Origin: Sipunculus nudus
Taxonomy: Eukaryota > Annelida > Sipuncula > Golfingiida > Sipunculidae
NCBI GenBank assembly: GCA_026874595.1
Contig: CM049309.1
Coordinates: 96,928,723-96,992,722 of the forward strand
Reading direction: 5' to 3'
Length of the DNA: 64,000 nucleotides
Positions within the stretch are counted from its first letter, which is position 1; each line of letters begins with the position of its first letter. Made by a program: the position numbers and the translations under genes. Below the pieces are notes generated by a model, which saw only the letters and a list, made by a program, of their open reading frames with translations, was not told the DNA's origin and made no database searches. Positions 1-60,660 of the stretch are shown piece after piece.

Positions 1-2159
1 TCCAATTTTTTTAAGCAGATCCACTTTTTCCATTAAGAAGTTTTTATCTGTATCATTTTTTTATTTACAGGTTTATAAATTTTTAATTAAAAAACCTGAA
101 AATATAAGTTAAAATATTAGAATTGTTGCAAAAGTTGCAATCATTATATATACAGAGTAAAAAACATTGGGTCATATTATGCATACACATATATTTTATT
201 ATTTTTAAATCATAAATGTTTTAACTGATTTTAAAAGAAAATAATGCCACAACATGGCATTTACAAGAATATTCCTTGAATCACCAATAAAAAGTTTTGC
301 ATATTGGAGTTTTCAGGACATGCTTAATTTTATTCACCAAAATAAAATAAAAGTAAATTTGACAAAATAAAACATCTTTTCAAATAAAGTATACACACTG
401 TTGGTTGAATGAGGGACAAACAATATCATTGTGCTAATTACTATCCCAGTTTTAATTAATTACTGGAATTAATAGTCAATTTCACACCTGGTGAAGTTTT
501 TACTCTTCTGAAGTAAATGTACACTTTAATCATTGTTACCCTGGTGGTTCAATACAAAATCTAAAATGTAGCATGTCCAAGAATAAAATAAAATACAGAA
601 AAATTATAACATTCATCTAGTTTATGCACCAGCTGGGGGGGGGGGGATGAGTGCAGGGCCAGGGGAAGCCTGCTAGTAGTGGCCAAGCTGGGCCAAGGTA
701 AGCTGCCTGGGGTGGGTTACATAATGCAAGTGAAGGCTGTACTACTAGGTGGGCTAGATGTAAACAACACTTGACATGGTGTGTGAAAACATGAATAAAA
801 GCTATTCATTCCAATCAATTTCTTTTGAAAGTTCAGATTTTAAAAGATTAAATCCTTATGCATATATGCTGGGAAAATTAAATCAACAGTGCCAAAGTTG
901 GACAAAATTTAGGGTATTGTTTTTTATTTATGCTAATAACTTGAAAAATTTGCAAAATTCAGATCTAATTTTGGGTAAACAATTGAATTTTGAATAAATA
1001 AAGTTATATTCCTTAAAAAAGGTCTCTAGGTTCAGCAATTCTCATGTGAGTAAATATATTTCCTGATTTTTAAAAAAATTGCATTATGTTTTGGCCCATA
1101 ACTTCAAAATAATACTCAATACTGACCTAATTTTTGGTATGTTCATAGAAAATGTATAAAAGAATGTGAATACTAAATAAGATCAAAAACAGATCAGTGG
1201 TTTTGATATTAGGCAGCCTTGAAGTGTAACAATGGCTTTTTTTTATGGAAAACAGAGTTTTTTCCTTAATATCTCGAAGGAACAAAGTCCTAATGACCCA
1301 ATTTTCGGTATGGTAGGAGATTTTGGGGACATCTAAAATTATGTCAACAGCCTGGGGAGCATAGAGATGTGCACTGAATGACCTACAGTCATCAAAGTGG
1401 ACTGCTTGACAATGTAAGGGAATACAACAAGAGCCTCCAAAAAAATTCAATAACTAGCCTAATTTTGCAGCTTTTATTTTCAAATTTCAGATTTTAACAG
1501 ATTAAATCCTTATGTATACATGGTGTGAAAATTAAATCCACAGTACTTACAGGAAAAAAACATGCCATGGCCAAAGTTGGGCAAAATTTAAGGTACCAAT
1601 TTTATATTTTTGCCAATATTTAAAAAAAATTAACAGATTTTGATCTAATTTTTGGTATACAATTAAATTTTGATTAATTAAAGTTGTATTACTGGAAAAA
1701 AGTCCCTACCTTTAACACTTTGGGTCTTAAGTGACAAAATATCTTCCTGATTTTTTTACAAAGTGCATTATGTTTGGGCCAATAACTTTTTTAAATTATA
1801 TAATACTGACTTAATATCTGGCATGTACATAGGAACTATATAGAGTTATATTTATGGTAAATATGAAGAAAACCAGATGAGTGGTTTTGATATGAGGCAG
1901 TCATGAAGTGTGAAAATAGATTTCTAATAAAAAATTGAGGTTTTTCCTTAATATCTCAAAGGAACGAAGTCCTATTGACCCAATTTTTGGCATGGTAGGA
2001 GATTATGGGGACATCTAACTGTATGCCGAAATTCAGATTCGTAGGTCCAACGGTGTCGAAACGTGCCAGTCTTACGGACGGACATCCAGACGGACAGACG
2101 ACGGACAATGGACCATGACTATAGCTCAGATGACTTATAGTCAGCTGAGCTAAAAAAAA
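1..2159 (+). mobile_element. Family A element, 3' part (5' end outside window)
   Basis: Non-coding repeat whose body matches 58417-60655 almost base for base. Its 3' end carries a GACG/GACA-rich stretch (about 2075-2105) and then an imperfect hairpin at 2123-2151: AGCTCAG pairs with CTGAGCT, GACT pairs with AGTC, loop TAT, followed by an A run. The short reading frames have no recognisable domain. A G run lies near 636-647. Interpreted as a non-autonomous Helentron-like element. The DNA after its A run continues as mid-family B sequence, so this copy may be nested inside a B element that begins to the left of the window. Confidence 0.7.
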
Positions 2160-4552
2160 TTGTAGCTGGCACCACCAGTTTTGTATACAACAAAGCTATC
2201 AGAGATATATACATATGCCCAATTTCAGACTGATATATCAAACCCCTCCTGAGATATAAGCAGGGAAACACTGCGCAAAAAATTGTAGGTGGCACCACCA
2301 GTCTTGTATATGACAAAGCTATTTGATATGTATAAATATGCCCAATTTCAGGCTGATTATATCAAATTCCTCTGTAGAAATAAGGAGGCACATACATTGT
2401 GCAAAAGTCATTGTAGGTGGCGACACCTGTCTTGTGAACAAGAAAGCCATCACAGACAGGCAAATATATCAGGCCAATACATCAGACTTACCTTGAGTCT
2501 GATGCATGGGGCTGACCAGGCTTAGGTGAGAAAGGCAATTGCCCCTAGTGAACTGTGACAAATTGCTAGCTCAGGCTACTGCACTAAGTGAATTCACGAC
2601 CTGCGCCTGGCTAGACTGAGTGAACTTTTGACCTGTACCTGGCTGCACTGAGTGAACTCTTGACCTGTTGCATAATCTGACACAGTGGGCAGTCTGGCAA
2701 TGCTATAATTAGAATGCAGCTACTGCACTGAGTGAACTAGCTAGACTGAGTGAACTTTTGACCTGTACCTAGCTGCACTGAGTGAACTTTTGACCTGTTA
2801 CCTAATCTGATACAGTTGGCAGTCTGCAGAAGCTATAAACAGATCCAGGCTGACCTTTGGCCTGTTGCCAAATCTGAAATTGTAGCCACATCATTGCATT
2901 AGCTCATAGATTGGCTCCACATGCAGCCCTGAGAGGTATGACACCCATGAGGTGATCACATGATACTCATGAGGTGATCACATGCTACCCATAAGGTGAT
3001 CACATGCTGGCCATGAGGTGTTCACATGACACCCATGCAGTGATCACATGCCTTGTGCTTGGCTGCACTGACTGAACTCTTGACCTATATCTGGCTGCAC
3101 TGAATGAACTCTTGATCTGTTGCAAAATCTGAATCAGTTGGCAATTTTTCAACCTATTTAATGATACAGACACAATCTTTGCCTGTTGGTAAATCTGTTT
3201 ACACATACTGAAAGACTTTGGCTAAAATGCTTTTTTTCAAGCTGACATATTCATAAACTTTTTACCAAAAATATCTATAATAATAAAAGATGCAGTTCTT
3301 TCATTGCTAAAGGTCCAATAATTCTGCCAAAAATCATTCAAGTAAACCTGAACAAAGGCCACCTATGAATAATTTTTGTGCAATGTCACAGAAGATATAA
3401 TTGAAACAGCAATTTTGAAGAAGAAAACTATTGCAGTCCTCAGTTTGAAATAGACATAATAATGGCCACAAGACCAACTTCAGCTTTTCACAACTCAACC
3501 AAAAATAAAAAAACTCAATCTATTCTTATATGATTGAAAGAACCATGTCCTAGGATAATTCTTTTGAAAAACTGAACGATTCGACTTGACAGTTTCATCA
3601 TAAACATTATCAGCTGAAAGAGGTAAAAATTATGAGGTTTTTGCTAAAATAAAAACCAGGTCAATGTAGGTGGCAACACGAAATCTGCAACTTCAAATAT
3701 GAGTCATGTGACCAACATTTGCACAATACTTGGTAATGCTAGGTTCTGTCATTTCTGAGATTACTATGTCAGTATGCTTACTTGGCCAAATAACTAAGTT
3801 CAAATTTGTGTAATTCCGCTAAAATTCATCAAATGCAAACCATTTGAACAAACTTGAGAAGGCTTGCCTCTGGGATCATTTCTGTAAAATATTGAACAAT
3901 TTGGCTTGACTGTTTACAAGTAGAAGACTTTTAAAGGGTTTTCAGCCTTTTCCCTATAAAATTTAAGTAAATGCAGATAACAAAAAAATAAGCTGAATCT
4001 CACAATTTCATATGTGACAGATTATTGCATAAAATCTTGGGATGGTAGCTCCTGCTATTCCTGAGAAATTATGGGTTAATATACAGATGACCAATGACCC
4101 CAGTTCAAAAAAAGGTCAAGGCAGGTGCCACCACCAATACCTGAATTTCATATATGACTCACACTGGCATAAAATTTGGTGATGAAAGCTCCCGCCGTTT
4201 CTGAGATTGTCATTTTAGTATGATTTTTAGACAGATGACTAAGTTCAACTTCCTGTAACTCGGCCAAAATTCACCCAAATTTAACCATTTGAACAAACTT
4301 GAGAGAGATGGTATAAGAGATTATTTCTGTGAAATGTTGAACAATTTGGCTTGACAGTTTTGGAGAAGAAGATTTTAAACAATTTTTTAGATTTTTCTCA
4401 ATAAAATCTAAGAAAATGCAGAGTTTTTCAGATGGGTAATTTTTACATTAAATTTCATGATGCTAGCTCCAGTCTTTTTTGAAATAGTATTGGAAACGTA
4501 CAGATGACGGACGCCGCCACACCATCGCATTAGCTCACAAGTTCACTAAAAA
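2160..4552 (+). mobile_element. Family B element, 5' end missing
   Basis: Begins with the B-type text built on GGCACCACCAG, runs through the repeated phrases with TGAGTGAACTCTTGACCTG and the blocks resembling CTTGTAACTCGGCC, and ends with a GACGGACG stretch and a degenerate CACAAGTTCACTAAAAA terminus (about 4536-4552). Compared with the 21786-24051 copy it lacks the first about 200 bases. No coding region is supported. Confidence 0.6.
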
Positions 4553-6199: not shown

Positions 6200-6451
6200 A
6201 CAAGGGACCAATGGGTCATACGGCTCAGCTGAATGTGACATATATAATTGTATCACCATTGATGTATGTAGGTCTGTTAGATTTAATTTTTACAGATGTA
6301 ATTTTTTGTATTAATTATGTAGTTGAGCGGAATAGCAATATAGAAGTATCAGTATTTCAAATATGTACAAGAATGTGTGTCTAAAATATTGCATTGGGAA
6401 TGACCAGATGTTGTAAATTGCAGAGGAAGGAAGTGGAGATTTGCAAGTATA
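6200..6451 (+). mobile_element. Family A-type 5' end fragment
   Basis: Starts ACAAGGGACCAATGGGTC (degenerate palindrome) followed by GGCTCAGCTGA, the A-type subterminal motif. Only about 250 bases remain before a family B 5' end begins. Confidence 0.55.
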
Positions 6452-8888
6452 ACAATGCAGACAGGCCTAATGCGAACCTGTACATTTGGAAATACACCAG
6501 ACTTAATGACACAATGATGGACCATTACTTTTCATGTATATGAACAATGCAAGTACTAATCATTTTGAATAAGAACAATTACACAAACATCACTGCTGAA
6601 ATTCTGGCATGGGTGCACCAGTCTTGTATACAACAAAGCTATCAGAGATATACACATATGCCAATTTTCAGACTGATATATCAAACCCCTCCTGAGGAAT
6701 AAGCAGGGACACACATTGTGCAAAAATTATTGTTGGTGGCACCATCAGTCTTGTATACCACAAAGCTATTTGATATGTATAAATATGCCCAATTTCAGGC
6801 TGATATATCTAATTCCTCTGTAGAAATAAGCAGGCACATACACTGTGCAAAATTCAATGTACGTGGCACCACCTGTCTTGTAAATGAGATATTCATCAAA
6901 GACGCATAGACAGGTCAAAATATTAGTCCAATACATCAAACTTCCCCAGAGTTTGATGCACTGGGCTGACAAGGCTTAGGTGAGTAAGGCAGTTGCCCCG
7001 AGTGACCTGTGACAAATTGCTGCCTCAAGCTACCACACTGAGTGAACTCTTGACCTGCACCTGGCTAGACTGAGTGAACTTTTGACCTTACCTGGCTGCA
7101 CTGAGTGAACTCTTGACCTGTTGCATAATCTGACACACTTGGCAGTCTGCCAAAGCTATAAATAGATTCAGCCTGTACTTTGGTGCCAAATATGATGCAG
7201 TCAGCAGTCTGCCAAAGCTATAAATAGAATGCAGCTATTGCACTGAGTGAACTCTTGACCTATACCTGGCTGCACTTCTTCCAATCCTGGCGGTGTGCCA
7301 AAACTATTTATAGAGCTGACATCATCTTGGCTAATGGCCAACATCAAGGCACTGGCAATCTGCCAATGGTAAACCAAGTGCTGCCATCTGTACACAAAAG
7401 TCATCCCTACTTGAAATAACTTTGAAATTTATTTCCCAGTACAAAATGCTTTTCAGCTGACTTTTTATAAAAAAAAAAGAAATCAGGAATATATGTAAAA
7501 TTATTATGGATGCATACTGAATGCAAAATTAAAATACACATATATCTCATTGATGGCAAATTCTTGAATTAAGTTGAGTAGGGATACCAATAATTTATAA
7601 TCCATGTACAGTTGTTTTTATATAGCCACAGAGAACTGAATATCCATGATTGTCTGGTATGATGAATAACTAATATCATAAATCTATTTTTTTTAAAAGC
7701 TTTTAAAAAAACTTTCTTGTCAATATTTACCAAAGATAACCTGAAATCTAAATGTCTAGTGGCATGATGTAATAGATGTTGATAAACTGGTGCAAGGCTA
7801 CATGTAACAGCATAACACAGCTAACATATATGGTAAAATGACTCAATTCAATCTCCATAATTCAGCCAAAAATTATTCATGTGGAACCATGAATGACAAT
7901 TATTATAAGAATTATTGTAGGGATTATTCTTGTAAAATATTTAACAAACTGGCTTCAGTGGCATCAGTCGAAAAACGTTTGCCAGGTTTATAACTCATAT
8001 AGGAAGATACAGCAAACTGGCTAAGTTCAGCTTCCTGTAACTCAGCCAAAAAGCACTGAACCAAAACCTTTTGAACAAACTTGAATAATCAACATCTGAG
8101 GATAATTAATTTGTGAGGTTTAAGAATTTGGCCCAGTGGTTTTTGAGAAGAAGATCTTTGTAGCCACTGAGCTAAAATGGGCTGTTATGGCATATGACTC
8201 ATTTCAGCTTCCCATAACTTAGCCAAAAGTCACTGAAAAGAGACCATTTGAACAAACTTCAGAAAGCACTACCCTAGGATCGTTCCTCGGATATTAAACA
8301 TTTTGGCCATATGGTTTCAGAGAAGAAGTTTTCTGTAGCCCTCAGTGTGATACAGGCACTGATGACCCCGTACAACAAAGGCCGATGCAGGTGGTGCCAC
8401 CAATACCTCAATTTCAGATATGACCTATGTGACCAACATTGGCATAAAATTTGGTGATGATAGCTCCAGCTGTTTCTAAGATTTAAATTTTAATATGCTT
8501 TTTTGCACAGTTAACAAAGATTAGCCTCCTGTAACTCGGCCAAAAATCTTCGAACTGGAACCATTCGAACAAACTTGAGAAAGATTGTTCAAGGTATCAT
8601 TTCTGTAAAATATTGGACAATTTGGCTGGACAGTTTCAGAGAAGAAGGTTTTTAAAGTTTTTTTAGCTTTTTCCCTATAAAATCTAAGAAAATGCAGTTA
8701 GAAAAAAAATAAACAAAATCCGATATAGTTTTTTGGATGACTGAATATTTGCAAAAAATTTGGTGATGCTAGCTACTGCCATTTTTGAGATAGCTATGGT
8801 TAACGTACAGACGACGCACGACGCACGACGTACAACACACGACGGACGCTGCCGCACCATCGCATAACCTCACAGGTTCGCTAAAAAT
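6452..8888 (+). mobile_element. Family B element, nearly full length
   Basis: The 5' end carries AGGCCTAATGCGAACCTG (about 6463-6480, with the opening ACAAGGCCT degraded). The 3' end has an ACGACGCACG stretch (8806-8850) and CACAGGTTCGCTAAAAA at 8871-8887, so GCGAACCTGT and ACAGGTTCGC form subterminal inverted repeats. Internal blocks are shared with 21786-24051. No transposase or other coding potential is visible; interpreted as non-autonomous. Confidence 0.7.
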
Positions 8889-9500
8889 ACATATTTAATA
8901 AATCAAAATAATTATGGAAAAGTAGAAAACTGATATGTTTTGGGAAGCAGTTGCTGCTGAATGGGAGAGGATACAGAATGTCTCAAAAAGTATCTACAGA
9001 GAAGAAATGGTATATTAAGCTATGAGAAGTTGCCATGTTTGATCTGAATTGAAGGATGGGGGATTGTTGCTAATAATATCTTGTGATCTGACCATGTGTT
9101 TTCTAATGTTGAAACTGAAGCATTTAAACAGTTAGTAAAGACAAGATCTATGGTATTTCCATGGTCATTGGTTGGTTCTCTGACTAGTTGTGGACATTTT
9201 AATTAAAGAGTTGACCTAATTGTGTCAATTTGATGTTATATATTATATTAGAAATGTCAATTTTGGTTGAGGTCAACTTGAGAGACTAAAACTTGGAGAA
9301 CAGAGAAGAAGTTACTGATGGGACATGCGGATGACCTATAGCTGATAACAATCTGAAGTGACTGAGTCTGAGTGTGAATTTAGAGAAGAGATGACTCAAA
9401 ATCTGGTGTTGTGTGGTGGTGAAGGGTTACATGGGGACTCAGCTGTTCATGTATATAAATGGTTAAACCAGGAGGTAGTCTTTTGTTTGTTGTTCCTCTG
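8889..9500. other. Intergenic stretch, no feature recognised
   Basis: AT-rich DNA between a B element and D units. I see no open frame with a recognisable domain and no clear element ends. Confidence 0.5.
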
Positions 9501-10493
9501 ACAGCTATTTGATCATGATCAAGGTTTTCAAGGAGACTTTTCATGGACCTATCTGGATGTTAAGTGTTAACGATTTGTGCCCTGTTAACAGATGACAGCA
9601 TCTTTTAAGGTCTCAAAATAGAGAATAAAAATCGTTAAAAAATCGAAAAAATACAGATGACGCCACCAGTCTGCAGAATCTGATAAAACACTCCATGATT
9701 AATTTCCATGGAAAGAATCATGGTGATCAATGCATTAGTTGTTCAGATACTTGAGCTCTTGTATCAAATTTTTCATTATTCTGGGGGGTACTTTGGAGCC
9801 CCATAGCTGGAAGAATATGGGTAACAGAGACCTAATTCAAGGTTTCCAAGAAGACTTTTTATAGACCTCTCAGGATGTATAGTTTGAAGATTCCTGGTCC
9901 ACCGGTAACAATTTGTGCCCTGTTAACAGATGTTAGCATCTTTTGAGGTCTCAAAAACAGAGAAAAAAATTATAAAAATTGAAAAAATACAGATGACGCC
10001 ACCAGTCTGCAGAAACTGATGAAACACTCCATGATCAATTTCAAGACAGAAGATTCTAGGTCCAGTTGTTAGGATTTGGGCCTTGTTAACAGATGATTCC
10101 ATCTTTAAAGGTCTCAAAAATAGAGAAAAAAAATCGTAAAAAATCGAAAAAATACAGGTGGCGCCACCAGTCTGCAGAAACTGATTAAACACTCCATGAT
10201 CGATATCCATGCTAAAAATCTTGGTGATCAATGCATTAGTTGTTCAGATACTTGAGTTTTGTATCAAATATTTCATTATTCTGGGGGGAGTCCCATAGCT
10301 TGAAGAATATATATAACAGAGACCTTATTCCAGGTTTCCAAGGAGATTTTTCATGGACCTCTCTGTATGTAAAGAAATAAGATTCCAGGTCCAGTGGTTA
10401 CAATTTGTGCCTTGTTAACAGAGAGACAGCCGGACGGACTATGGACAAAGAGTGATCGCTATAGCTCAGATGACTTACATTCAGCTGAGCTAA
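9501..10493 (+). mobile_element. Family D element with A-like 3' hairpin
   Basis: Contains D units with GCCACCAGTCTGCAG near 9663, 9998 and 10165, i.e. spacings of about 335 and 167 bases. The 3' end has the A-type hairpin AGCTCAGATGACTTACATTC.. closing with CAGCTGAGCTAAA at 10482-10493. The next base begins the 5' end of an A element, so two elements meet head to tail with no spacer. Confidence 0.6.
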
Positions 10494-10878
10494 ACAAGGG
10501 ACCCATTGGTCACAGCACTCAGCTGTTATATATGATAAAAAATATGATTTGGGAATGAGGCACATGGTGGTTTTGTGTGGTAATAAATATAAGCTTTATT
10601 ATGAGTCGTTTGTGTTTAGCTTATGTATGATTTTGATAGTATCTTTGGAGACAGGGAAGAGGATTGACTTCATTTATTTTATTAACAAATGGAGTGCTAT
10701 TGTCACACAGATTTTGACTTGGCCATATAACTTATAAGCAGCACATATAATAAAAGAGTTTAACTATTTATTAAAATTTAATAATTAATATTATGCCAAT
10801 ATAATTTTTATTTAAAAAAAAAAATAAGAAAATCATATGATTTTTTAAAAATAAAATATAACTGAAATGTTTATTAAA

Positions 10879-40866: not shown

Positions 40867-40867
40867 C

Positions 40868-45992: not shown

Positions 45993-46156
45993 TGCATAAA
46001 TTCTTATTAGAAATTCTCTGTTGTTGATACGTAAAGACATCATATTTTCCACATCAACAGCAATTTTGTTTTGGGCAAGTTTATGTCTGTTAAATCAAAT
46101 CAACACCATTACTAAGAAATTTGAGTTGAATTCCTTGTGAACCAATATAAAAATGA

Positions 46157-47150: not shown

Positions 47151-48624
47151 AATGTGCGCTTGGTGAAGAATAGTGGTGTCCATTCTTTGGATATATAGAT
47201 GGAGTGTAAAAGGCGGCATAACTTCTCCTGGTGTCTGAGCCAATGTTTGAATCCTCAAACTGAACCCAAAGAAAGCTTGGCACAGTTTTGCTATGCAGGT
47301 AGTGTATGTGCTTCAATATACAAGAACAACCATTAGTGATTCCATCTTGTACTGCAACATTACAGGTGATATCATATGGTAAACCAACAGCAATTTGAAG
47401 CGTTTTCAGCAGTCCTGCAGTTTTTGATGGATTATCTGGTATTCTTGAAAGTACATCTTTCTTCACATCATCTGTCACATCTGTTATTACTGTGTCAGTT
47501 GCAGTAATTATTACTTTAGTTGTGTTTGTACACTCGAAAATTTGCATATTATGATTGTCGACACATGTATTGTTTGTAAACAAATGAGTAGTTCCTGATG
47601 GATTTGAAGTGTTATCACAAACAAGACAAGATTTTAGGGTTTCAATGTCAACTTTTGTGTGTTGTCCTTCACGTAGCCTGTTCAAAAGTTCTGCAAAATC
47701 ACGATCATTTTTTTGCCTCATGATTTCAGTAAGCTCATACATATGAAAAGTGTCTACCCACAGGTTGAGTGCAAGAGGTCCATAGTTTTCAGACAAGTTC
47801 TTGAAAATCCAGTTGTCCATTGCTGGTTGAAGTTGGAAGAGGTCTCCAATAACAATTACATGGATACCACCAAATGGTTCTTTGTTGCCTTTAATTTCTT
47901 TGAGCCGCAAATTAATGAAACTGAACATGCAATTTCCTACCATGCTTATTTCATCAATCATTAATACATGAAGGTGCCTATACTGTGTTCGGAGTGTATT
48001 CAGGATGTCAGATGACAATTTTCTGTATTCAAATCCTTTATTTGGATCGATTCGGAAAGCATTATGTACTGTGGATCCTTGAACATTGTAAGCAGCCTTT
48101 CCTGTAGGTGCAGTGATAAGTATCTTGCACTCCAATGGATTTTCACCTTCATTCCCACTTAAGTGACGATGTAATGCTTGATAGAGAGCTCTGAGCAAAA
48201 CTGATTTACCAACACCAGCCCCACCAGTAAGGAATAGGTGTAAAGGCTTAGTAAAACATTTTACATGTTTGATGTGTTTGAAGACAGTGAGTTGTTTCTC
48301 ATTTAGACCCTGTACTAACTGTCTGTATTCTACATCAGGTATTCTACCAGGCAATGTAAGTGGTTCTTGTGCAGTGGTTCTTGGTGGCAGTCCAAGATCA
48401 GTTGTCAAATCATAGTTTCTCAGATGATCTGACCTTTCTGGGTCAAAAAAAGCATATTCTTCACTGGAAACTGGCTGTTGAATTGAATCTTCCTTCTCTG
48501 CATGTTCTGTTGTAGGAGCTATTTGTGCATATTCAGTTTCATGGTCATATTCAGCTTGGTCCTGTGCTTCTTGTAAAACATCTGCTTTGTGCTCATACTG
48601 TTTTCTTTTAAATTCAATTTGTAT
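47125..48624 (-). pseudogene. Helentron PIF1-type helicase domain
   Basis: Superfamily 1B helicase that would unwind DNA during rolling-circle transposition. The frame is open from the insertion boundary near 48624; counting from the first TTG/ATG-type codon (48408), motif I GGAGVGKS is at 62-69, Ia TAPTGKAA at 99-106, II IDEIS at 151-155, III GDLFQLQP at 188-195 and IV EIMRQKND at 228-235. The segment upstream of 48408 is an acidic linker joining Rep to helicase. It terminates at 47125 after a single-base frame change, and the remaining motifs continue in the next frame. All core motifs look intact. Confidence 0.92.
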
Positions 48625-49433
48625 TTTTTAGCGAACCTGTGAGCTTATGCGATGGCGCAGCGTTGTCCGTCCATCGTCAGCCGTCCGCCGTCCAGGGCTG
48701 GCTTTCCACCATCCATGGCTGTAAGTCAGAAACTGTCTGAGCTAGCAGCTCCAAATTACATGTAAGAATTTGTCACATGTGAAACTTGGTGCCCTGGAGC
48801 TTATTATTGGGTATCTGCATTAATTTAGATTTTATAGAGAAAAAGCTTAAAAACCTTTAAAATCTTCTCTGAAACTGTCCAGCCAAATTGTCCAATATTT
48901 CACAGAAATGATCCCTGGAACAATCTCTCTCAAGTTTGTTCGAATGGTTCCAGTTCGGAGATTTTTGGCTGAGTTACAGGAGGTTGAACTTAGTCATCTG
49001 TCCAAAAAAGCACACTAAAATTAAAATCTCAGAAATGGCTAGAGCTATAATGACCAAATTTTATACCAATGTTTGTCACGTCATATCTGATTTTGAGGTA
49101 TTGGTGGCGCCACCTACATTGATGTGTTTTTTACAAGCGAAAATGTAATTTTAAACTCTTCTAGCTTGTACACTGATTTATGATGAAACTGTTCAGCTGA
49201 TTGGTTTAAACTTTACAAGAATTATTCTATGGTAGAGTTCTGCCAGTTTTATAAGAATAGATTGGGTAAATACAGTTTTAAAAAAGCATTGTAGCCAATT
49301 GAAAAAGGCTTTCTGTATTTGAAAACAGATTTGACTTCATGCAGCCAAGTCAAGAGGTCACTCAGTACAAACAGGTGGGGTCCAGACATCACCATGGCAA
49401 CTGACCTGGCTCTGGTGGGGTATCTAGACAATG

Positions 49434-49451
49434 TGTCTAGACGTCTAGACA
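49434..49451. repeat. Perfect 18-bp palindrome
   Basis: TGTCTAGACGTCTAGACA. Two further TCTAGAC words flank it (49422 and 49456), all within 50 bases. Confidence 0.85.
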
Positions 49452-49739
49452 CAGCGTCTAGACATCTGGACACAATGTTTAGATGCAGAATTCCCAGATT
49501 ATTGGAACTATATCTTTCAACTGTTTGAAAAAACTTGGTTTGCATTTTAAGCGAATCGGGTTTATCATCAGGTCACATGTGAACTGCTGCGCCTTCATTT
49601 TTGGTTGACCTCTGACCTTTCTTGCTGCCCAGTGTCCATTTGTGCGTCTGTTTCCACACATAAACCCACATATCTCGGGAACCGTTTGACCGATCAGGCT
49701 AAAAATGCAGAAATGCTTTTGCACAAATGTAGCCCTTTG

Positions 49740-50770
49740 ATAGCTTTATAACATACACTAAAAATGGTAGCGCCACCTGCAACCATTTTTGCACAGCCTC
49801 CATCTGTTCATCTGCCTTGGGATAATATTACTCATATCTCAGCAGTGGTTTGACATATCCACCTAAAATTTTGCAGGTTTATACATCCTGGACAGCTTTC
49901 TCGATTTTATGACAGGTGGCGCCACCTACATTCACATTTACTCTGTAGACATCCAAGCTCATATCTCAGGAACCGTTTGACCGATTGGGCCAAAATTTTG
50001 CATGTGTATAGATCTTACATAGCTCTTCATCATAGGCAAAACTGGTGGTGCCACCTGCAACCACTTATGCACAGCGTTCATCTGTTCATCTGCCTTTGGA
50101 TAAAATCACTCATATCTCAGCAGTGGTTTGACTTATCCACCTGAAATTTTGCAGTTTTATACATCCTGTACAGGTTTCTCGATTTTATGACAGGTGTTGC
50201 CACCTACATTCACATTTACTCTGCAGACATCCAAGCTCATATCTAGGGAACCGTTTGACCAATCAGGCCAAAATTTTGCATATGTACAGATCTCACATAG
50301 CTCTTCATCATAGGCAAAACTGGTGGTGCCACCTGCAACCATTTATGCACAGCGTCCATCTGTTCATCTGCCTTAGGTTAAAATCACTTATATCTCAGCA
50401 GTGGTTTGACTTATCCACCTGAAATTTTGCAGTTTTATACATCATGGACAGGTTACTCGATTTTTTGACAGGTGGTGCCACCTACATTCACATTTACTCT
50501 GCAGACATCTAAGCTCATATCTCGGGAACCGTTTGACCGATTAGGCCAAAATTTTGCATGTGTATAGATCTCACATAGCTCTTCATTATAGGCAAAACTG
50601 GTGGCGCCACCTGCAACCACTTATGCACAGCATCCATCTGTTGATCTGCCTTGGGATAAAATCACTCATATCTCGGCAGTGGTTTGACTTATCCTCCTGA
50701 AATTTTGCAGGTTTATACATCCTGGACAAGTTCTCGATTTTATGACAGGTGGCACCACCTACATTCACGT
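49740..50770 (-). repeat. Family C internal repeat of about 278 bp with GGTGGCGCCACC
   Basis: Versions of the palindrome GGTGGCGCCACC occur near 49767, 49917, 50046, 50192, 50322, 50472, 50602 and 50748. Spacings alternate between about 150 and 128-130 bases, making a two-part unit of about 278 bases repeated nearly four times. The alternate halves share AAAATCACTCATATCTC and AACCGTTTGACCGAT. Confidence 0.75.
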
Positions 50771-51062
50771 TTAAGCTGCAGACATCCATGCTAATATGCA
50801 ACACACCACGCTCTATTCCCCTTGCCACTTAATCCATGCCTCACTTCACCCGTCCGACTCTGATTTATGCAGATACACACAGTGGTTTGTCGACTACCCA
50901 TATTCTGGTTTTAAAATTTTCTAGTCCGAAACCTGCAGATCAGAAACGTCCATTTTGCTGAAATCATAATGACTAAGGTAGATATGCAGGACTTAGGAGG
51001 ATCAATATTAAATTTAAAAAATAAACCTCCATTCATACTCCTAAACTTTGCACAGGTTCGCA

Positions 51063-51839
51063 TTAGGCCTGTAGGCCTTGTTTCTTGTTATATTGTTCTG
51101 CATATGTGAGTGAACCATTCAAAAGGTCTTTGGTTTCATCTCTCCATGATGTGAACAACAGCAGCCTTTCACGAAAGCAGTTTTCTGGGTCTATTTTCTC
51201 AGTATAACGAACATATCTTAGAACTCTTGGAACTTGTCTGCGAGTGTATGTTGTACCATTTGGTAAGGTGATACTGAGCTTTTCTTCTGTGTTTATATTA
51301 GCAATTGCTTCATTTTGATCAGTGATGGTGTTATCATCAGTGTTGTCATGGAATGCATCATCTGCTCTTTCTAAGGGGTATTTAATATTAATCTGTGATG
51401 CACAATCAGCAAGACACCAATTTTCAAATGCTCTTGGTCTCTTTGAGTATCTGTCAATGATATTATTTGCTGCTATGTCTGTCGAATCATGTGGGAGATG
51501 CTCAAGTTGTTCTTTACTCTTGAGTAGAAAAGTTCTTTCATCTGGAGGGGCAGTTGGTACAAATATTACATCCCTGGTGGTTCTTGTCATTGGAAGTTGT
51601 AATACCAGATATGCTGCTTCCTGAGCACTTATTTCCACAGCATTCAAAAACTTGTTTCGCATATCTCTCACCTGCTGTCTTAGAGTTTTAGCCCCTTTTC
51701 TAGCTTCTTTGCAAGCAGCATCTAACAAAGCACTCATTCCCCTTTGACTTTTGCTGACATAGGAAACTATGTATGTTGCACATGCATAAGGATCAAGAGT
51801 AAACTGAAGGTCATGGTTAGCTTTCCATCCAGTAAACAA
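51063..51839 (-). pseudogene. Helentron Rep, catalytic tyrosine segment
   Basis: Second part of the HUH nickase. DLQFTLDPYACATY is followed by IVSYVSKSQRGMS; the two tyrosines at residues 23 and 27 of the open run match the Y2 pair that cleaves and joins single strands. Downstream, ENWCLADCASQINIKYP and RQVPRVLRYVRY fit the Rep-helicase linker of Helentrons. The last few residues before the stop (51063) come from the inserted B element. The preceding part is in another frame, so it is not a start of translation. Confidence 0.87.
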
Positions 51840-51931
51840 AAGTCATGTATCCATTGGTTTTTATTTCAGATGGTGACCTTCTAAGGAATACTTTTGGACC
51901 TTTAATGGATGTACGCAATGCCATGTAGTAG

Positions 51932-52414
51932 TCATCTAGAGAGAGAGTTCAAGAAATCATGAAAGGACAGGTCATTGTCAACATTTAAGCTTGCAAGTGC
52001 CTGAGAGATCCTGTGGTAGTTCTGTTTGTGTTTTTCATCAACTTCTGTGTCATGAGGTGCAAGGATTTTAGTTTGTGGCATGGGTGGCAATGGAAAGTTA
52101 AAACGACAAATTGGCTTTCCATTCTTTCTACAAGACCTGGAGTGTCTGTGTATTTGTAGATCTATCAGATCTTGATAGTCTGCATCATTTTTGCAGCAGG
52201 TCACATGCTCATCAATGTATTTGGTGACAGTATCTTCTTCATGTTGACCATATATGGGTGCATCATCAATCCACATAAGCATGTGAGTATGTGGAGAGCC
52301 ACGTTGCTGAAATTCAACTCTGTAAAAGAAATCTTTCAGCTTTCCAAGAGGTGAATGTGCACTTTTTAAGATGGTGTGAATGAAGGAATGAACTCTGATC
52401 AAAATATCGCACAC
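51932..52414 (-). pseudogene. Helentron Rep, HUH motif segment
   Basis: Contains VEFQQRGSPHTHMLMW, where His-Thr-His at residues 42-44 is the metal-binding HUH motif of rolling-circle nickases, and KPICRFNFPLPPMP, a Helitron-conserved stretch. The frame changes at the left end at a CTCTCTCTCT run (about 51936-51946), after which a sensible reading continues in another frame, suggesting slippage in the microsatellite. Confidence 0.88.
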
Positions 52415-52685
52415 AGGTTACAGGATCTGCTTTAACCAAGCGTGTTTTATTTACCCAATCCATTTGTCTAATATCATCACTTGAATATGATCTGCCATCA
52501 ATCAGTTTTCCAAGCATGACCAGCAGGTCTTCCCAATGTGTGTCTGCAGCAGATAGAGATTTAAACCATGTTGGCAATCCTAGTTGTCTAATCATTGCAA
52601 AGAGATCTTTTTTACGTGCTTCAAAGTATGTAGGGGAGCCTCGTATGGATCTTAAAATCCTGTAGCCCTCATCCAACCTAGTCAA
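52314..52685 (-). pseudogene. Helentron Helitron_like_N domain segment
   Basis: The run with YRILRSIRGSPTYFEARKK, LFAMIRQLGLPTWFKSLSAA and DTHWEDLLVMLGKLIDG is typical of the domain that precedes the Rep motifs. The frame is lost near 52400 and resumes in the overlapping HUH segment. The role within the transposase is not well defined. Confidence 0.85.
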
Positions 52686-52737
52686 CTCATGAACTCTGCT
52701 TTCATTCAGGACATCCTGGACGGAATACTTTTTCCCT

Positions 52738-53290
52738 TTAGTTTTGATTCGACAAAATTGCTAGGCTAACCTTTTCTGTAATTTGTTCTATTTGTAATTT
52801 CTTCATTTTATAGAAAAGATTTGGAACATTTGCAGCAACTCTGCGATCAAGTGCTCGTAGTTCCCATTTGCAAATGTCGCTGTAATAAACAGAAATTTTT
52901 CTTTCAGCATTATCTAATCTCCTTTGCCCACAGAAAATTGACGGAAATGACATATATTCTGAATCTTTGTCTTGAAACAGACTCAAAGGCTTCTGTCCTT
53001 CACCAGGGGCTACAGATATTATGTCATTCCCTGTGAGTTCAGTATCATCAAGCATGGTATCTAGAATTCCTCCTTGTTCATCTTCGTGTATTTCTTCAAA
53101 ATTGTCATCATCAGATAGACTATCATCCACGGAATTGTCAGTTGTGCCAAGAGGTTCATGCTCTTGAGATTTTTTGAAAGTCTGAAGCCAATTGCTATTT
53201 ATTGTAATGTTTGCATCTTTATACAACTGACTATGTCTCATCAAGTAGTGTAGTGCACTCAGAATTACAGCTGGGCTTACATTTTGAGTG
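52738..53290 (-). pseudogene. Helentron linker segment, acidic
   Basis: The reading begins near 53290 with VSPAVILSALHYLMRHSQ and continues through INSNWLQTFKKS, then an Asp/Glu-rich stretch. It ends with VPNLFYKMKKLQIEQI, which leads towards Helitron_like_N. The frame changes on both sides. I know no specific function for this stretch. Confidence 0.7.
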
Positions 53291-53294
53291 CACT

Positions 53295-54020
53295 CTACAT
53301 TTTTGTACTCAAGTTTACGGTTTTAAACTTATTGGTACAGTAGCGGTGGAGTCTGACGTACGTGGCAACATATCCACAGTCGTTTCTACTCACAATCTGA
53401 GTAGGAACGTTGACCAGTGATCCCTTCAGTGACAACTGTGAACCTCTAGGTAATTCTCGTAACTGCATGAATGGTTTGCGTAATGCAACAAGCCTTTCCT
53501 CTAGGGGACACAAGCGCAATTCAGGTGGCTTATCAGGAAACTGCATTCCATTAAACACAGAAAGTTTTGGTGTCTTGTGGCATTTGAGAGCATCAAGACA
53601 AGTTGTGCATAACCACTGTTTATTGTCCACTGATTTTACATCCGTAATGTGTGTAGCTAGGAAAGTGGAATCTAGTTTGTCTGGCCAGCTATCAGAATTC
53701 TTTACCGAGTGTTTGAACCATGGCTGATTACAGCAACAACAAGCATATATGGGACCTTCAGATATTGAAGTATGAAATTTCTGGATACATTCTTTGAGAT
53801 CTGCACCCTGTTTTCTCTTCAGATTAACTTCTTTTTCATTTTGTCTGTATGATTCATCAGTTCTTTTTTGTGCTCTTGTAGCTGTGTTTCTCATGGTCTC
53901 AGTTCTCTTATGTAATGGAACAGCTCTTTTCCTCCTTTTGGCCAGTCTCTCAGTTTCTCTGAAAAAATCATCTTCAGATCTTTTTCTTTTTTTACCAGTT
54001 GATTCTCTGACACGTTCCAT
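53295..54020 (-). pseudogene. Helentron Cys-cluster and DUF6570-like segment
   Basis: Starts in the charged region, then has ACCCCNQPWF (Cys 94-97) and WLCTTCLDALKCH (Cys 138 and 141), which look like a zinc-binding module. The stretch LCPLEERLVALRKPFMQLRE and LPRGSQLSLKGSLVNVP is characteristic of the DUF6570-type domain found in Helitron proteins. It runs out of frame at 53295. DNA-binding is likely but inferred. Confidence 0.8.
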
Positions 54021-54440
54021 TTGCCGATAGATTTCATTTTGTCTGGCGGTTTGCTTCTGTTGTTTCTCAGCTTCTTTCTCATGTGCCTTTCGAACTTGGT
54101 CTTTTCTTATCTTCTGATTGTATGCTTTCTCTGCAGAACGTTCTTTTTGTCTGTAAGTTACATTTTGTCTGGCAGTTTGCTTCTGATGTTTCTCGGCCTT
54201 TCTTTCTTTTTGTCTGTATGTTTCGTTTTGTCTGGCAGTTTGCTTCTGTTGTTTCTCAGCTTCTCTCTCTTGTGCCCTTCAAACTTGATCTTTTCTAATC
54301 TTTTGATTATATACTTTTTCTGCAGAACGTTCTTTTTGTCTGTACGTTTCATTAAGTCTAGCAGCTTGCTTCTGTTGTTTCTCAGCCTTTCTTTCTTTTT
54401 GTCTACAAGTTTCATTTTGTCTTGATAACAGTTTTCTTTG
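54000..54440 (-). repeat. Coding tandem repeat, about 20 residues, Lys/Arg/Glu/Gln-rich
   Basis: About six copies of a motif like ARQNETYRQKERKAEKQQKQ, at the DNA level phrases such as TTTTTGTCTGTA and CAGCTTGCTTCTGTTGTTTC in + strand order. The frame shifts within the array (near 54280 and 54090). Coiled-coil or nucleic-acid contact is plausible from the composition only. Confidence 0.75.
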
Positions 54441-55378
54441 TTGATCTTTTAGGCATTCTATATCCCTTTGAGCTGGATTCATTCTTTTCTGTCGCATATA
54501 CTCTTTCAAATATACTTTTCTGTTCATTTTTAGTTGCTGATCTTTAAAGTATTCTTGGATCAAGTGAACACCATCTTGAGAATCATTTTCATGTTCAGGT
54601 CTGCTTTTATTTACCGTGTCCATGATCTCTGTTGTTGACTGGGCTGCAAGCTTTAGCTGATCATCTGAATTGGTAGACTGTTTACTTTGGCGTTTCAGTC
54701 CAAGTTTAAATGCTTCAGTGGCGACTTGGTTTATTCTGAAATATGTCACTTCAAACATAGTTGCATTCATCACATTTGCATAGTTTGATATATACTGAAA
54801 GAATTCCGACTGCAATTCAAATGCAAGAAGAACTGATGTGCCACAGGGTGTAGGATACCCAAGATGATTTCTGCTGTGTGGATCAAACACACAGTAACAA
54901 TTCTGCTGATATGAAACTGCAATCGCGTTTCTTCCAACTATAATAAGCCCACATTTCTTGGAAGTGATTTCTGCCAAAGCATCCTGGTAAAACATATAGG
55001 GTGCTTGCACATCAGAATGATTAAGAAACCACCGGTGATCAAGGTTGGTTTTATCTTGAAATTATGATCAAGGGATTGTATGTACTCTGGTATTTCATCC
55101 CAAGCCATGTATCCTTTATCTGGTATATCTGACATCAATGTTCTGTACAAATGATCACCTTCAATTAATATTGTGTCCATATCATTTGTTTGCCATTCAA
55201 CAACATCGTGCAGGGTGGCATAAAGGGGAGCAACAAGTGAATTAGGCACACACTGTTTGCCAACTGACTCTGATGGAAACTGAGGATCGCCTTGGTGAAA
55301 AGTGCCTTTAACAATCTTACTGATAGATACAGCCGGGACAGGTATAGCTGAAGCCATAGCTGGGCAGATAAGTTTCAA
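54279..55378 (-). pseudogene. Helentron C76/tegument-protease-like cysteine peptidase
   Basis: Two overlapping minus-strand frames together make a peptidase-like domain. The first part (from 55378) has VGKQCVPNSLVAPLYA with a candidate catalytic Cys (43) after Gln, and DTILIEGDHLYRTL. After a frame change near 55020 the second part reads QAPYMFYQDALAEI, CGLIIVGRNAIAVSY and CYCVFDPHSRN, with a candidate Asp-His pair in DPHSR. This arrangement resembles the papain-like deubiquitinase fold of peptidase family C76. It is known in several transposon and viral proteins; here it is part of the transposon. Recognition is by motif only. It precedes the charged repeat array. Confidence 0.7.
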
Positions 55379-55611
55379 GTTTACAAAAATCTGATAAAAT
55401 CTTTAAAAAAAAATTGTACTGGATGAGAGAAAGTCAGGCACAGGATCTAGATTATTTAATGGACCTGGTTATGAAAATGAAAAAAAAATGAGTATAGCTA
55501 TAAAGATACAGGAATATGGTGAAGATGCCTCTGTTCAACAGAGTTCATAAAATGGAAATAAATGACAAACTCAAAACTCTATAATCAGGCTATAATATCA
55601 TCAGGTTTATT
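55379..55611. other. Helentron upstream flank, no feature recognised
   Basis: AT-rich; would contain the 5' part of the Helentron, but no palindrome plus subterminal motif of the A, B, C or E kinds is seen in the expected orientation. Confidence 0.4.
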
Positions 55612-55770
55612 TTTGCACTGGTTTTATTTTCTCGTTTTTTTATCTGGTTTTGATCTCTTTTTTTTATCTGGTTTTGATCTCGTTTTTTTTATCTGGTTTT
55701 GATCTCGTTTTTTTCTGGTTTTGATCTAGTTTTTTAATCTGGTTATCTTTGATCTGGTTTTCTTTGATCT
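55612..55770. repeat. Minisatellite of TTTTATCTGGTTTTGATCTC words
   Basis: The word TATCTGGTTTTGATCTCGTT and variants recur about seven times with a spacing of 18-26 bases. Confidence 0.75.
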
Positions 55771-55929
55771 AGTGATCTTGTTTGTGAAATATTTGATGTG
55801 GATTTGTTCTGGATTTTTTCTTGGCAGGTACCTGAAAACATAAAGAAAAAGATTACAGTATTGAAAATATTTATTATCAACTGAATACAAAAGTAAGAGA
55901 TAAAATAACAAGTGCATGCATAATATGAA

Positions 55930-56480
55930 AGTCGTGTATCTGGTAACCTCTGACCTCATTGAATATGCATGAATTTTGTTGGGAATATATATCAGGTGAG
56001 AAACTCTATTGGTAAATATGTATGACAAGTTTCATGAAAATCCATAGTCGCCACTGTGCCACCAAAGTGAGGTGATCTCTGACCTCATTAAATGTGCATG
56101 GATTTTGCTGGAAATTGAAGAAATTGAGATATTTTATGTATTAATAATCCTGATGAGTTTGATCCATATCCTTCATATTCTTTGTAAGTTATTGCAGCGA
56201 CACCTCCAAGTGGCCTGTTCAGAGCAGCCTGGTAACCTCTGACCTCATTAAATAAGCATGAAATCTGCTGAGAGATTAATTGGGGTGAGGAACTGTATTG
56301 GTAAATATGTACGAGTTTCATGAAAATCTACAGGATATTTGTGAAGTCACCAAAGTGCCTCCAAAGTGTGGTGACCTCTGGCCTCATTAAATATGCATGG
56401 ACTTTACTGAAATCAAACTTAGGCGAGATATTTTAGTGATTAATATTTCTGTTGAATTGTATCAAAATCCAACATATTCC
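55930..56480. repeat. Dimeric tandem repeat of about 289 bp
   Basis: The phrase CTCTGACCTCATTAAAT (or a variant) occurs near 55949, 56088, 56238 and 56377; spacings 139, 150 and 139 bases. Alternate halves share GGTAAATATGTA, GTTTCATGAAAATC and CACCAAAGTG. About two copies of the dimer. Confidence 0.65.
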
Positions 56481-57500
56481 TCACAATACACTGGTAAAAG
56501 TGCAGTACAAGAGACCTGCCCAAAAAAAAATGACTTCCCTACCAATGCTAGTGATTGTTTGTATTATTTCTTGCTCCAGCATGGAGCTTACTTGATGATT
56601 CAATCAACATCCACAAATTTCTATGAGACTGACATAAAAATAAGACATCAAACTTGATTTGAAAGAAAAATTAAGAGAGAGTAATGACAGTTTGCAGTAT
56701 AGGGGATTCTTAATATTCCTCATGAATAATTAATCAGCTAGCGAAAGCGAGGCTAACTGGGAATAACAGGGAGCACGTGCTCACTCACCATGGCTATGTA
56801 TAGCAACACAGACCTGTCAGTTGTTCCATTTATTCACTTCAAATTTGTGGATGCTTACAAACAAATTTTGTTAAAAGCATCTGGAAAGAAGTATAAATCC
56901 AAAGGAATCTGCTGCTATGAGCACAATGTGAACCCGACTTGTAAGGAAGGTACTTTCCAGTGACTCTAAACATAATAAAGTTAAAGACCCTTGGGCTCAC
57001 ATCTACTTGGCTCTATGGTCTATGATAGCTATGAATCAAACCACAGGATACCATTAATTGCCCGAGGTCAATTAAAATATCAAGATATTCAAGTGTCGGG
57101 CACAGGTGCTGACTGATACACATTCCAGACGGCACAGAATGAGGTGGTCTGTGCATGGTTCCTCTGATTGTGTACATTAATTCTAAGTTTCTTGTTTCAT
57201 GTACAGTAGGCACCGAGAGACACACACACACCAAAACACTTTCGGCAGTACGCTGCTTATACTGCCATTATGAAGTCATTAATTTAATAAAGACTAATAA
57301 AGCATAAATGAAACATGTCTGCTTCTGTGATTTTTAAAAGTGTTCTGAAATGAAATTATGAAATGTTTTCTATTCACAAGCCTATTAAAAATATAGATGT
57401 AGGTATGCTGTATCTGGCACCAACAGAAAATACACTGTATTTTAGTGGCATAACCAACACATAGCTGTCAAGTGAAACACTATGTCACTGGTCATTTAAA
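56481..57500. other. Unassigned DNA
   Basis: A short stretch ACAAGAGACCTGCC (56517-56530) resembles an element 5' end but no subterminal motif follows. Otherwise no coding region or element boundary recognised. Confidence 0.4.
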
Positions 57501-60500
57501 ACAAGGGACCCATGGGTCACGGCGCTCAGCTGATCGTGATTGGACTATAAATGTTTCTCCACTGTGATACTATATCGAGTCGATAAAGCTTATGAATATC
57601 ATGTACATGTGAGGCTATTATAAAGGAATGTAATGTAATATGTGAGTAAATGATAAATGAAATTACCTGACTGATGGATTAATAGAGTCAAATAAAGTGG
57701 TTTATTTTTTATTTATTTAGGAGGGGTTGAAAATTGTGATATATTTGAGCAAATATGAATGCAATGACAGCAGTAATAAGCAGTAGTAGAATGATGATAA
57801 GGCTATTTGTTGAAGGATCTAAAGTGTATGGTAGTCTGCAAGCGTTCAATTTGACAGATATGATGTTATGATTAACTATGCTGATGAAGTGATTTATGAA
57901 TATGTGACTGTATGACACAATATCTCTTTAGTCTGGACAAGGTACATTATTGTGATGCCCACTATGTCTACATATTACACAATATTGACATAATTTCTGG
58001 CATGTACATAGGTACCTATGGACAAATAGTTATACAAAATATTAAAGTATGAATATATCTGATTCATCTTGTTCTTGCTTACTGAGGCTGACTTTGGGAT
58101 GGGGTTCGGAGAAGGGAAAAGTGAGGGCAGCACGAAGGTGGATGTAGAAATATTCTATTGTAATGTTTTTCATTTATATAAGAATATGAAAAGCTAAGAG
58201 GAAAGGGGCCCTCCTACTTGGTTATAGTAAAGTTCTAAATATATGATTGCAAACTAATACTCTGACAAGACTGTCATGAAGAAAACCAGTAAAAGTTTTG
58301 AGATACTGTGTTGCATACGAAAATTTATAGTTGGACAGGCAAGTGGACAGAATGGACTAATACCTTTATTTCACTTTCAAGAGAATAATGCATTTAAGTT
58401 TAAATATAATCCTATATTTTTAAGCAGATCCACTTTTTCCATTAAGAAATTTTTATCTGAATCATTTTTTTTATTTACAGGTTTATAAATTTTTAATTAA
58501 AAAACCTGAAGATAAAAGTTAAAATATTAGAATTGTTGCAAAAGTTGCAATCATTATATATACATAGTAAAAAACATTGGGTCATATTATGCATACACAT
58601 ATATTTTATTATTTTTAAATCATAAATGTTTAAACTGATTTTAAAAGAAAATAATGCCACAACATGGCATCTACAAGAATATTCCTTGAATCACTATTAA
58701 AAAGTTTTGCACATTGGAGTTTTCAGGACATGCTTAATTTTATTCACCAAAATAAAATAAAAGTAAATTTGATAAAATAAAACATCTTTTCAAATAAAGT
58801 ATACACACAGTTGGTTGAATGAGGGACAAACAATATCATTGTGCTAATTACTATCCCAGTTTTAATTAATAGTCAAATTAATAGTCAATTTCACACCTGG
58901 TGAAGATTTTACTCTTCTGAAGTAAGGAATTACTTATCTCATGAACATCCACACTTTCACAGCAATACACCACTTTGTGGACACAATTAAATGTACACTT
59001 TAATCATTGTAACCCTGGTGGTACAATACAAAATCTAAAATGTAGCATGTCCAAGAATAAAATAAAATACAGAAAAATTATAACATTCATCTAGTTTATG
59101 CACCAGCTGGGGGGGGGATAAGTGCAGGGCAAAGGGGAAGCCTGCTAGTAGTTGCCAAGCTGGGCCAAGGTAAGCTGCCTGGGGTGGGTTACATAATGCA
59201 AGTGAAGGCTGTACTACTAGGTGGGCTAGATGTAAACAACACTTGACATGTTGTATGAAAACATGAATAAAAGCTATTCATTCCAATCTATTTCTTTTGA
59301 ATGTTCAGATTTTAAAAGATTAAATCCTTATGCATATATGCTGGGAAAATTAAATCAACAGTGCCAAAGTTGGACAAAATTTAAGGTATTGATTTTTTAT
59401 TTATGCTAATAACTTGAAAAATTTGCAAAATTCAGATCTAATTTTGGGTAAACAATTGAATCTTGATTAAATAAAGTTATATTCCTGAAAAAAAGTCTCT
59501 AGGTTCAGCAATTCTCATGTTAGGTGAGTAAATATATTTCCTGATTTTTTTAAAAAATTGCATTATGTTTTGGCCCATAACTTCAAAATAATACCCAATA
59601 CTGACCTAATTTTTGGTATGTTCATAGAAAATGTATAAAAGAATGTGATTACTAAATAGGATCAAAAACAGATCAGTGGTTTTGATATTAGGCAGCCTTG
59701 AAGTGTAACAATGGCTTTTTTTATGGAAAACAGAGTTTTTTTCCTTAATATCTCGAAGGAACAAAGTCCTAATGACCCAATTTTCAGTATGGTAGGAGAT
59801 TTTGGGGACATCTAAAATTAAGTCAACAGCCTGGGGAGCATAGAGATGTGCACTGAATGACCTACAGTCATCAAAGTGGACTGCCTGACAATGTAAGTGA
59901 ATACAACAAGAGCCTCCAAAAAAATTCAATAACTAGCCTAATTTTGCAGCTTTTATTTTCAAATTTCAGATTTTTACAGATAAAATCCTTATGTATACAT
60001 GCTGTGAAAATTAAACCCACAGTACTTACAAGAAAAAAACGTGCCATGGCCAAAGTTGGGCAAAATTTAAGGTACCAATTTTATATTTTTGCCAATATTT
60101 AAAAAAATTTAACAAATTTTGATCTAATTTTTGGTATACAATTAAATTTTTATTAATTAAAGTTGTATTACTGAAAAAAAAGTACCTACCTTTAACACTT
60201 TTGGTCTTAAGTGACCAAATATCTTCCTGATTTTTTTAAAAAGTCCATTATTTTTGGGCCCATAACTTTTTTAAATTATATAATACTGACTTAATATCTG
60301 GCATGTACATAGGAACTATATAGAGGAATATTTATGGTAAATATGAAGAAAACCAGATGAGTGGTTTCGATATTAGGCAGTCCTGAAGTGTGAAAATAGA
60401 TTTCTAATAAAAAATTGAGGTTTTTCCTTAATATCTCAAAGGAACTAGGTCCTATTGACCCAATTTTTGGCATGGTAGGAGATTATGGGGACATCTAACT

Positions 60501-60660
60501 GTATGCCGAAATTCAGATTCGTAGGTCCAACGGTGTCGAAACGTGCCAGTCTTACGGACGGACATCCAGACGGACGGACAGACGGACAGACAGACGGACG
60601 GACGACGGACAATGGACCATGACTATAGCTCAGATGACTTATAGTCAGCTGAGCTAAAAA
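57501..60660 (+). mobile_element. Family A element, full length, long subtype (reference copy)
   Basis: 5' end ACAAGG plus the perfect palindrome GACCCATGGGTC (57507-57518) and GCTCAGCTGA at 57524-57533. The 3' end has a GACGGACGGACAGACGG microsatellite (60555-60607) and a hairpin ending TCAGCTGAGC (60645-60654), the exact reverse complement of the 5' motif, then TAAAAA. The part from 58417 on matches 10-2151, with an extra about 66 bases near 58926-58990. Non-coding; about 3.15 kb. Confidence 0.8.

Follow-up and report, generated by a model that had tools for sequence, protein, structure and literature searches.

We describe here a window of 64,000 nucleotides from the sipunculan Sipunculus nudus (assembly GCA_026874595.1, contig CM049309.1, positions 96,928,723 to 96,992,722, forward strand; the window is this whole stretch, and all positions below count from its first letter). 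Four repeat families in it, designated A, B, C and E, are very probably non-autonomous Helentrons (HINEs), which stand beside a Helentron of autonomous type and an element that is probably a Helentron deletion derivative. The anatomy of the elements, their matched end pairs, their nested insertions and the absence of target-site duplications (TSDs) are observed in the window itself; the nicking, replication and end pairing by which the elements would move are transferred from published accounts of related systems. Counted together with the insertions that they contain, the element intervals span 46,895 of the 64,000 bases, with one complete copy each of C and E. Subterminal inverted repeats are abbreviated as subTIRs, and ends are named after the feature that marks them, a T run or a short palindrome.

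57501-60660, minus strand: A_d, complete A-class HINE with a 10-nt subTIR pair GCTCAGCTGA, the palindrome GACCCATGGGTC and a GACG-rich tract at 60555-60608; in the published orientation its 5' T-run/subTIR end is 60660 and its 3' palindrome end 57501
10494-15995, minus strand: A_a, A-class HINE split by C1 (10879-13773), recognised by self-alignment, with empty-site paralogues at 17952-17956 and 25702-25703
17574-20218, minus strand: A_b, A-class HINE
25322-27437, minus strand: A_c, A-class HINE nested in E
1-2156, minus strand: A_e, A-class HINE truncated at the window edge, with 95-96% identity to A_d
6200-10493, minus strand: A2, A-class element with a 14-nt subTIR pair GCTCAGCTGAATGT, split by B2 (6452-8887)
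9032-9487, minus strand: Helentron-type endonuclease (EEP) remnant inside A2, in sense with the A2 ends (tblastn)
43359-55402, minus strand: broken autonomous-type Helentron with N-terminal part, Rep, PIF1 helicase and endonuclease (Pfam); putative 3' end at 43359
48625-51081, plus strand: B element lying within the coding region of the Helentron and itself containing C-type sequence (about 49544-50914)
21786-24051, minus strand: B1, complete B HINE with an 11-nt subTIR pair GCGAACCTGTG
6452-8887, minus strand: B2, B HINE nested in A2, with a 10-nt subTIR pair
41551-43358, minus strand: B copy cut at 43359 by an A-type end
10879-13773, minus strand: C1, complete C element inside A_a, with a 9-nt subTIR pair GTATCCGCC and a 5' terminal hairpin
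37203-41547, minus strand: C2, C copy containing a non-LTR (long terminal repeat) retrotransposon (37958-40936)
25257-28786, minus strand: E, complete element enclosing A_c, with a 14-nt subTIR pair GTTCACTCTGTGAA and the palindrome GACCCAGGGGTC
36917-37009, plus strand: A2-type 5' end fragment in opposite orientation, TTTTTAGCTCAGCTGAATGT

Each of the four families carries a motif near one end whose reverse complement lies near the other, as an earlier note on this DNA had claimed. Between the outermost 50 bp of the two ends, the longest perfect complement measures 10 nt in A_d, 11 in B1, 11 in the B copy labelled Bminus, 10 in B2, 9 in C1, and 14 in both E and A2. Among 20,000 random pairs of 50-mers drawn from the window, 4.7% reach 8 nt, 1.3% reach 9, 0.36% reach 10, 0.1% reach 11 and 0.005% (one pair) reach 14. 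When seven palindrome ends are tabulated against six T-run ends, the complements follow the classes: they measure 8-14 nt within the A class, 11 for B with B, 9 for C with C and 14 for E with E, and at most 7 nt across classes. The inverted subterminal repeats by which HINEs are recognised are present in B, C, E, A2 and A_d. The motif TCAGCTGA found in A is palindromic by itself.

Read in the published direction, all elements but those of C begin at the T run, continue with AG and then enter the subterminal repeat, while C begins directly with the repeat; a microsatellite-like tract and central repeats follow, and the element closes with the complement of the subTIR, a short palindrome and CTTGT or CTAGT (ATTGT in B2 and CTGGT in one C copy being variant tips). 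The earlier note had the 5' and 3' ends reversed relative to this direction; because its picture is the reverse complement of the published one, most copies lie on the minus strand, which is also the strand of the Helentron genes. It had also exchanged two palindromes, as GACCCAGGGGTC at 25263 belongs to E, and AGTCG/CGACT, seen at the C end at 10912, belongs to C. Its description of a GACG-like tract and a closing CTAAAAA in A, B and E was confirmed. GACG-rich tracts exceed the threshold at six places, of which five adjoin A ends and the sixth a B end, and E has a tandem tract of GACGGTG type at 28697-28749; one C copy, too, has a GGC-rich tract ahead of its motif. CTAAAAA follows 14 of 16 T-run ends, a count to be read with the fact that the search patterns for non-C ends already included CTAA; it is missing from C at 13773 and from the end at 10493, where the next element cuts in.

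A hairpin formed by the 5' subTIR folding onto the bases that follow it is supported in most classes when compared with 2,000 random 45-mers under DNA folding parameters: p is 0.002 for each of A_d, A_a, A_b and C, 0.0115 for A2 and 0.04 for E, and A_c stands out less (0.06). The 3' palindrome that is typical of HINEs is present by sequence near the end, though some copies carry a mismatch. With C left out, 13 palindrome ends (11 of them distinct) from A, A2, E, B and the Helentron align as one stem of 5 bp with a 2-nt loop, in which two of the five pairs are altered on both sides; 89.1% of the stem cells are paired, and versions of the stem slid along the alignment pair at most 54.5%.

Within 8 bp of self-alignment endpoints lie 28 of 32 predicted termini (13/16 palindrome ends and 15/16 T-run ends), compared with a mean of 2.73 and a maximum of 10 coincidences in 2,000 draws of random sites; the alignments counted were at least 150 bp long, after removal of any that began in the satellite (29.7-35.5 kb) or in the array (44.7-46.0 kb). 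The two flanks of all ten complete copies share at most 2 nt, except for AAA in A_c, and at most 1 nt once A runs are trimmed, so that no TSD longer than 2 nt, A runs aside, is found in these ten copies. An A stands directly outside all 16 distinct palindrome ends, and at least two in 13 of them, which is the T-rich or TT insertion site, free of TSDs, described for HINEs. The junction of C1 within A_a (10879/13773) can be compared with an empty site kept in two other A copies, and the B element in the Helentron coding region sits between two open frames. Its matched ends suggest that A2 is a single element, and no empty paralogue of the B2 insertion site in A2 was seen in the window. Altogether, the HINE/Helentron layout proposed earlier is supported by subTIRs, palindromes, insertion at A/T runs, absent TSDs and Helentron remnants, with the 5' hairpin evident in A, A2, C and E and unclear in B.

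The Helentron occupies minus-strand open frames from 55402 to 46157, which match the Pfam families Helitron_like_N (E = 2.6e-9) and PIF1 (4.7e-24), with a C-terminal part that matches Exo_endo_phos_2 (6.8e-7). Rep, PIF1 helicase and C-terminal endonuclease thus follow each other in one reading direction, as expected of a Helentron, across several broken frames and the B insertion. The most N-terminal frame scores 21.8 bits against Herpes_teg_N, under the cut-off of 25; this frame may be OTU-like. The Rep motif reads EFQQRGSPHTH, and its S fits the Helentron signature given in PMC4067079. At 43359, the corner at which the neighbouring B copy is cut, lies (in the direction of the earlier note) the terminus ACTAGTGGCCCATGGGCCATGACGCTCAGCTGAAT, in which the A-class motif is accompanied by a palindrome bearing symmetric changes at two positions. 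This end agrees with the A2 end at 27 of 35 bases and, through its motif, is complementary to the T-run end of A2 along 12 nt; we infer that 43359 is the 3' end of the Helentron. A 5' end of the Helentron was not found, the sole A-type 5' end in 55400-64000 being that of A_d. Joining A_d and the Helentron into one element from 43359 to 60660 was rejected, as A_d is a complete A copy with both of its ends. The remainder of the B copy cut at 43359 was not found in 55403-64000, where the best match (E = 2.3e-4) falls in the A_d microsatellite.

The second link between A-class ends and Helentron genes comes from A2. Its remnant, read from 9487 to 9032, matches residues 207-365 of the 365-residue Helentron endonuclease open reading frame (ORF) in tblastn (E = 1.9e-21 against the window and 2.4e-23 against the A2 part); it contains several stops, and its identity of 36% over 161 columns includes divergence added by the decay of the remnant. 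With the Helentron ORFs as queries against the window at E <= 0.01, this was the sole extra match, and B, C and E gave none. The endonuclease of the retrotransposon had no match at the remnant when searched against the A2 part (best E = 0.079, elsewhere), and the Helentron endonuclease ORF had no tblastn match to the retrotransposon in the window at E = 0.01. A-class ends therefore appear to enclose Helentron-type coding sequence in A2 and to follow a Helentron at 43359; through this remnant and this terminus, one of the four motif pairs, that of A, is tied to Helentron coding sequence.

The corner at 43359 might instead belong to a separate, truncated A-type HINE lying beside the Helentron, given that the 5' end of the Helentron was not found and a matched pair cannot be demonstrated for it. 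We consider this unlikely. No self-alignment with E <= 1e-5 touches 43392-43737 or 45990-46157, and for this reason the interval from the corner to the coding region contains no known A or A2 body; moreover, A2 repeats the order of endonuclease, untranslated stretch and same terminus. The 3' part of the Helentron holds a tandem array with a 155-bp unit flanked on both sides by GCATTATC. The surrounding region, about 43737-45985, is probably a hAT-like non-autonomous element containing that array, its class guessed from an 8-bp repeat; no inverted repeat of at least 15 bp was found there.

Following the published models, a Helentron protein would nick at the T run and peel off a single strand by rolling-circle replication; at the second end, the two subterminal repeats would pair and, together with the 3' palindrome, mark the stop, and the peeled strand would then enter a TT site without duplicating it. 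Under this proposal each family has a motif of its own because the two ends of any one copy must match, and the different motifs could be explained by that need, with no new transposase for each family. The families B and E are instructive here, as their first 45 nt at the T-run end align with scores of 16-22 versus shuffled means of about -9.7 (z = 6.8, 7.3 and 8.1 for three B copies). Their subTIRs differ at six alignment positions (one B copy compared with the single E copy), and each family keeps its own form at both ends, which is consistent with the two ends having to pair and does not call for a new transposase. Tentatively, we suggest that the subTIR may act as a self-matching lock and not as a transposase-specific word: a concerted change at both ends might open a new mobilisation group served by the same Helentron machinery, B and E might stand on either side of such a switch, and a like tendency would be seen in the palindromes of A, B, E and the Helentron, which are changed symmetrically. 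B and E are the family pair on which the idea of end-to-end pairing becomes testable.

The earlier note had drawn a different conclusion, namely that each family is moved by its own transposase, which reads its motif. In its favour, the four motif classes do not cross-match, and the remnants may stem from more than one Helentron lineage, the two endonucleases being 36% identical with remnant decay included. We nevertheless find separate transposases doubtful, since both Helentron remnants carry the same A-type motif despite that divergence, B and E are alike in terminal sequence outside the motif, and tblastn in the window found no Helentron coding sequence in B, C or E. Pairing between ends explains the family motifs at least as well as distinct transposase specificities do. 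The families had also been called unrelated, which is not supported because B and E have terminal sequence in common and the central repeats of B and C match at 62% along some 250 bp (E = 9e-16).

It is highly improbable that the families are unrelated miniature inverted-repeat transposable elements (MITEs) or satellites converging on similar ends. Such convergence would agree with the A body being unlike the others, as the comparison of A_d gave one C match (112 bp, E = 0.004) and the 76-bp end common to A2, and with the weaker likeness of A to E (z = 3.1) and of A to B (z = 3.0) at the T-run end. It is at odds with the homology of the B and E ends and of the A and A2 ends (76 bp at 81.6%), with the absence of TSDs and with Helentron coding remnants that have A-class ends. 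Several observations do weigh against the interpretation of the families as HINEs with a Helentron source. The motif pair claimed for A is strong in one of four complete A copies, A_d, because A_a, A_b and A_c hold an 8-nt core between their 50-bp ends, a length that 4.7% of random pairs attain. The B copies form no strong 5' hairpin (p = 0.096, 0.136 and 0.197), and folding at the palindrome end is weak, with p of 0.0175-0.46 in the ten complete copies and 0.115 at the Helentron end. The pairing in the common stem exceeds its shuffled value of 84.0% modestly, with 32 of 500 shuffles as high; shuffles equal or surpass the covariation score in 17 of 500 cases and the number of cells changed on both sides in 18, again a modest signal, and they do so in 233 for pairs changed on both sides and in 396 for pair types. 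The Helentron's own subTIR pair is half seen because its 5' end was not found in the window, and a comparison of three proteins shows a distant likeness between the endonucleases of the Helentron and of the retrotransposon (23%, E = 3.8e-6).

The layout of Helitron2, Helentrons and HINEs is published (PMC3627910, PMC4067079, PMC7492417; here and below, statements refer to the parts of these papers drawn on). In the published direction the subTIR, its inverted repeat and the microsatellite stand 5', and the second subTIR and the palindrome 3' (PMC4067079, PMC7492417, PMC3627910). The HINE of the oyster Crassostrea gigas, Cg_HINE, resembles the present elements in its 5' subTIR with inverted repeat, its GTCY-type microsatellite, its central tandem repeats, its 3' subTIR followed by a palindrome, its T-rich sites without TSD, and the presence, within a single genome, of several families that are unrelated or related in part (PMC7492417). 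The Pearl elements of bivalves (CvA, CvE, DTC84, MgE) likewise have central tandem repeats in a HINE-like frame (PMC7492417, PMC5139131); both likenesses are drawn from descriptions of layout and not from sequence comparison. Helitron2 elements with asymmetric terminal inverted repeats (ATIRs) share the 5' ATIR hairpin and a 3' ATIR just before the 3' hairpin, and pairing of the two ATIRs has been proposed as the replication stop (PMC3627910). These elements come from a green alga and other species, whereas the present window alone holds several classes nested together; for two related Helitron2 elements, compensatory changes had already been reported (PMC3627910). The Helentrons and HINEs of mite, Culex and Drosophila share the order Rep-helicase-endonuclease, the subTIRs, the 3' palindrome, the TT target and the non-autonomous derivatives (PMC4067079). 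Those HINEs are 84-99.9% identical to their partners, whereas here only short ends are common with the Helentron in the window (PMC4067079).

Earlier papers thus already cover the layout, the tandem repeats of oyster HINEs, the nesting of such elements and compensatory changes between related ones. HINEs are abundant in the oyster, yet in the part of PMC7492417 drawn on, their describers found no link to an autonomous Helentron, and the C. gigas assembly paper, in its corresponding part, reports a screen that yielded no evidence for autonomous copies (PMC7992393). The window, in contrast to Cg_HINE, offers a concrete tie to Helentron remnants for one motif class, as a lead that does not settle the matter for C. 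gigas itself. A published link of HINEs to autonomous Helentrons was announced in none of the titles and abstract openings that formed our scope, with most subscription papers and Repbase outside it, and a literature text search for six motif strings returned no paper related to repeats by its title. Searches of contig collections carry little weight, because these collections are viral and prokaryotic: in the viral one the helicase ORF gave four peptide-pattern stretches, none confirmed, and three end patterns gave no match; in the prokaryotic one an end pattern gave no match and the endonuclease ORF 19 stretches, none confirmed.

The central repeats of B, C, E and A2 also share a 12-bp palindrome, GGTGGCRCCACC, found at 42 sites (2165-50759) with at most two mismatches, against a mean of 0.4 and a maximum of 3 in 20 shuffles; none of these 42 sites lies in the A copies proper. 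Four of 16 T-run junctions lie just upstream of a similar site (at most four mismatches), compared with 50 of 1,312 A runs (at most three mismatches), and its neighbourhood as an insertion hot spot is a lead only, being post hoc and based on uneven thresholds. The palindrome was also considered as a CTCF-like site and rejected, with three matches at up to two mismatches against a shuffled mean of 1.95 and maximum of 8.

An Rfam scan at the gathering threshold and a tRNA scan of the window gave no match. The retrotransposon within C2, at 37958-40936 on the minus strand, encodes a reverse transcriptase and an endonuclease. The satellite at 29778-35454 consists of about 107 copies of 53-bp units and adjoins a thioredoxin-like open frame at 29300-29779 on the minus strand. 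Lastly, an element at 61689-63475 is bounded by perfect inverted repeats of 30 bp (AATTACCGTAAAATCTCCACTTAAAACCGC), 1,727 bp apart.

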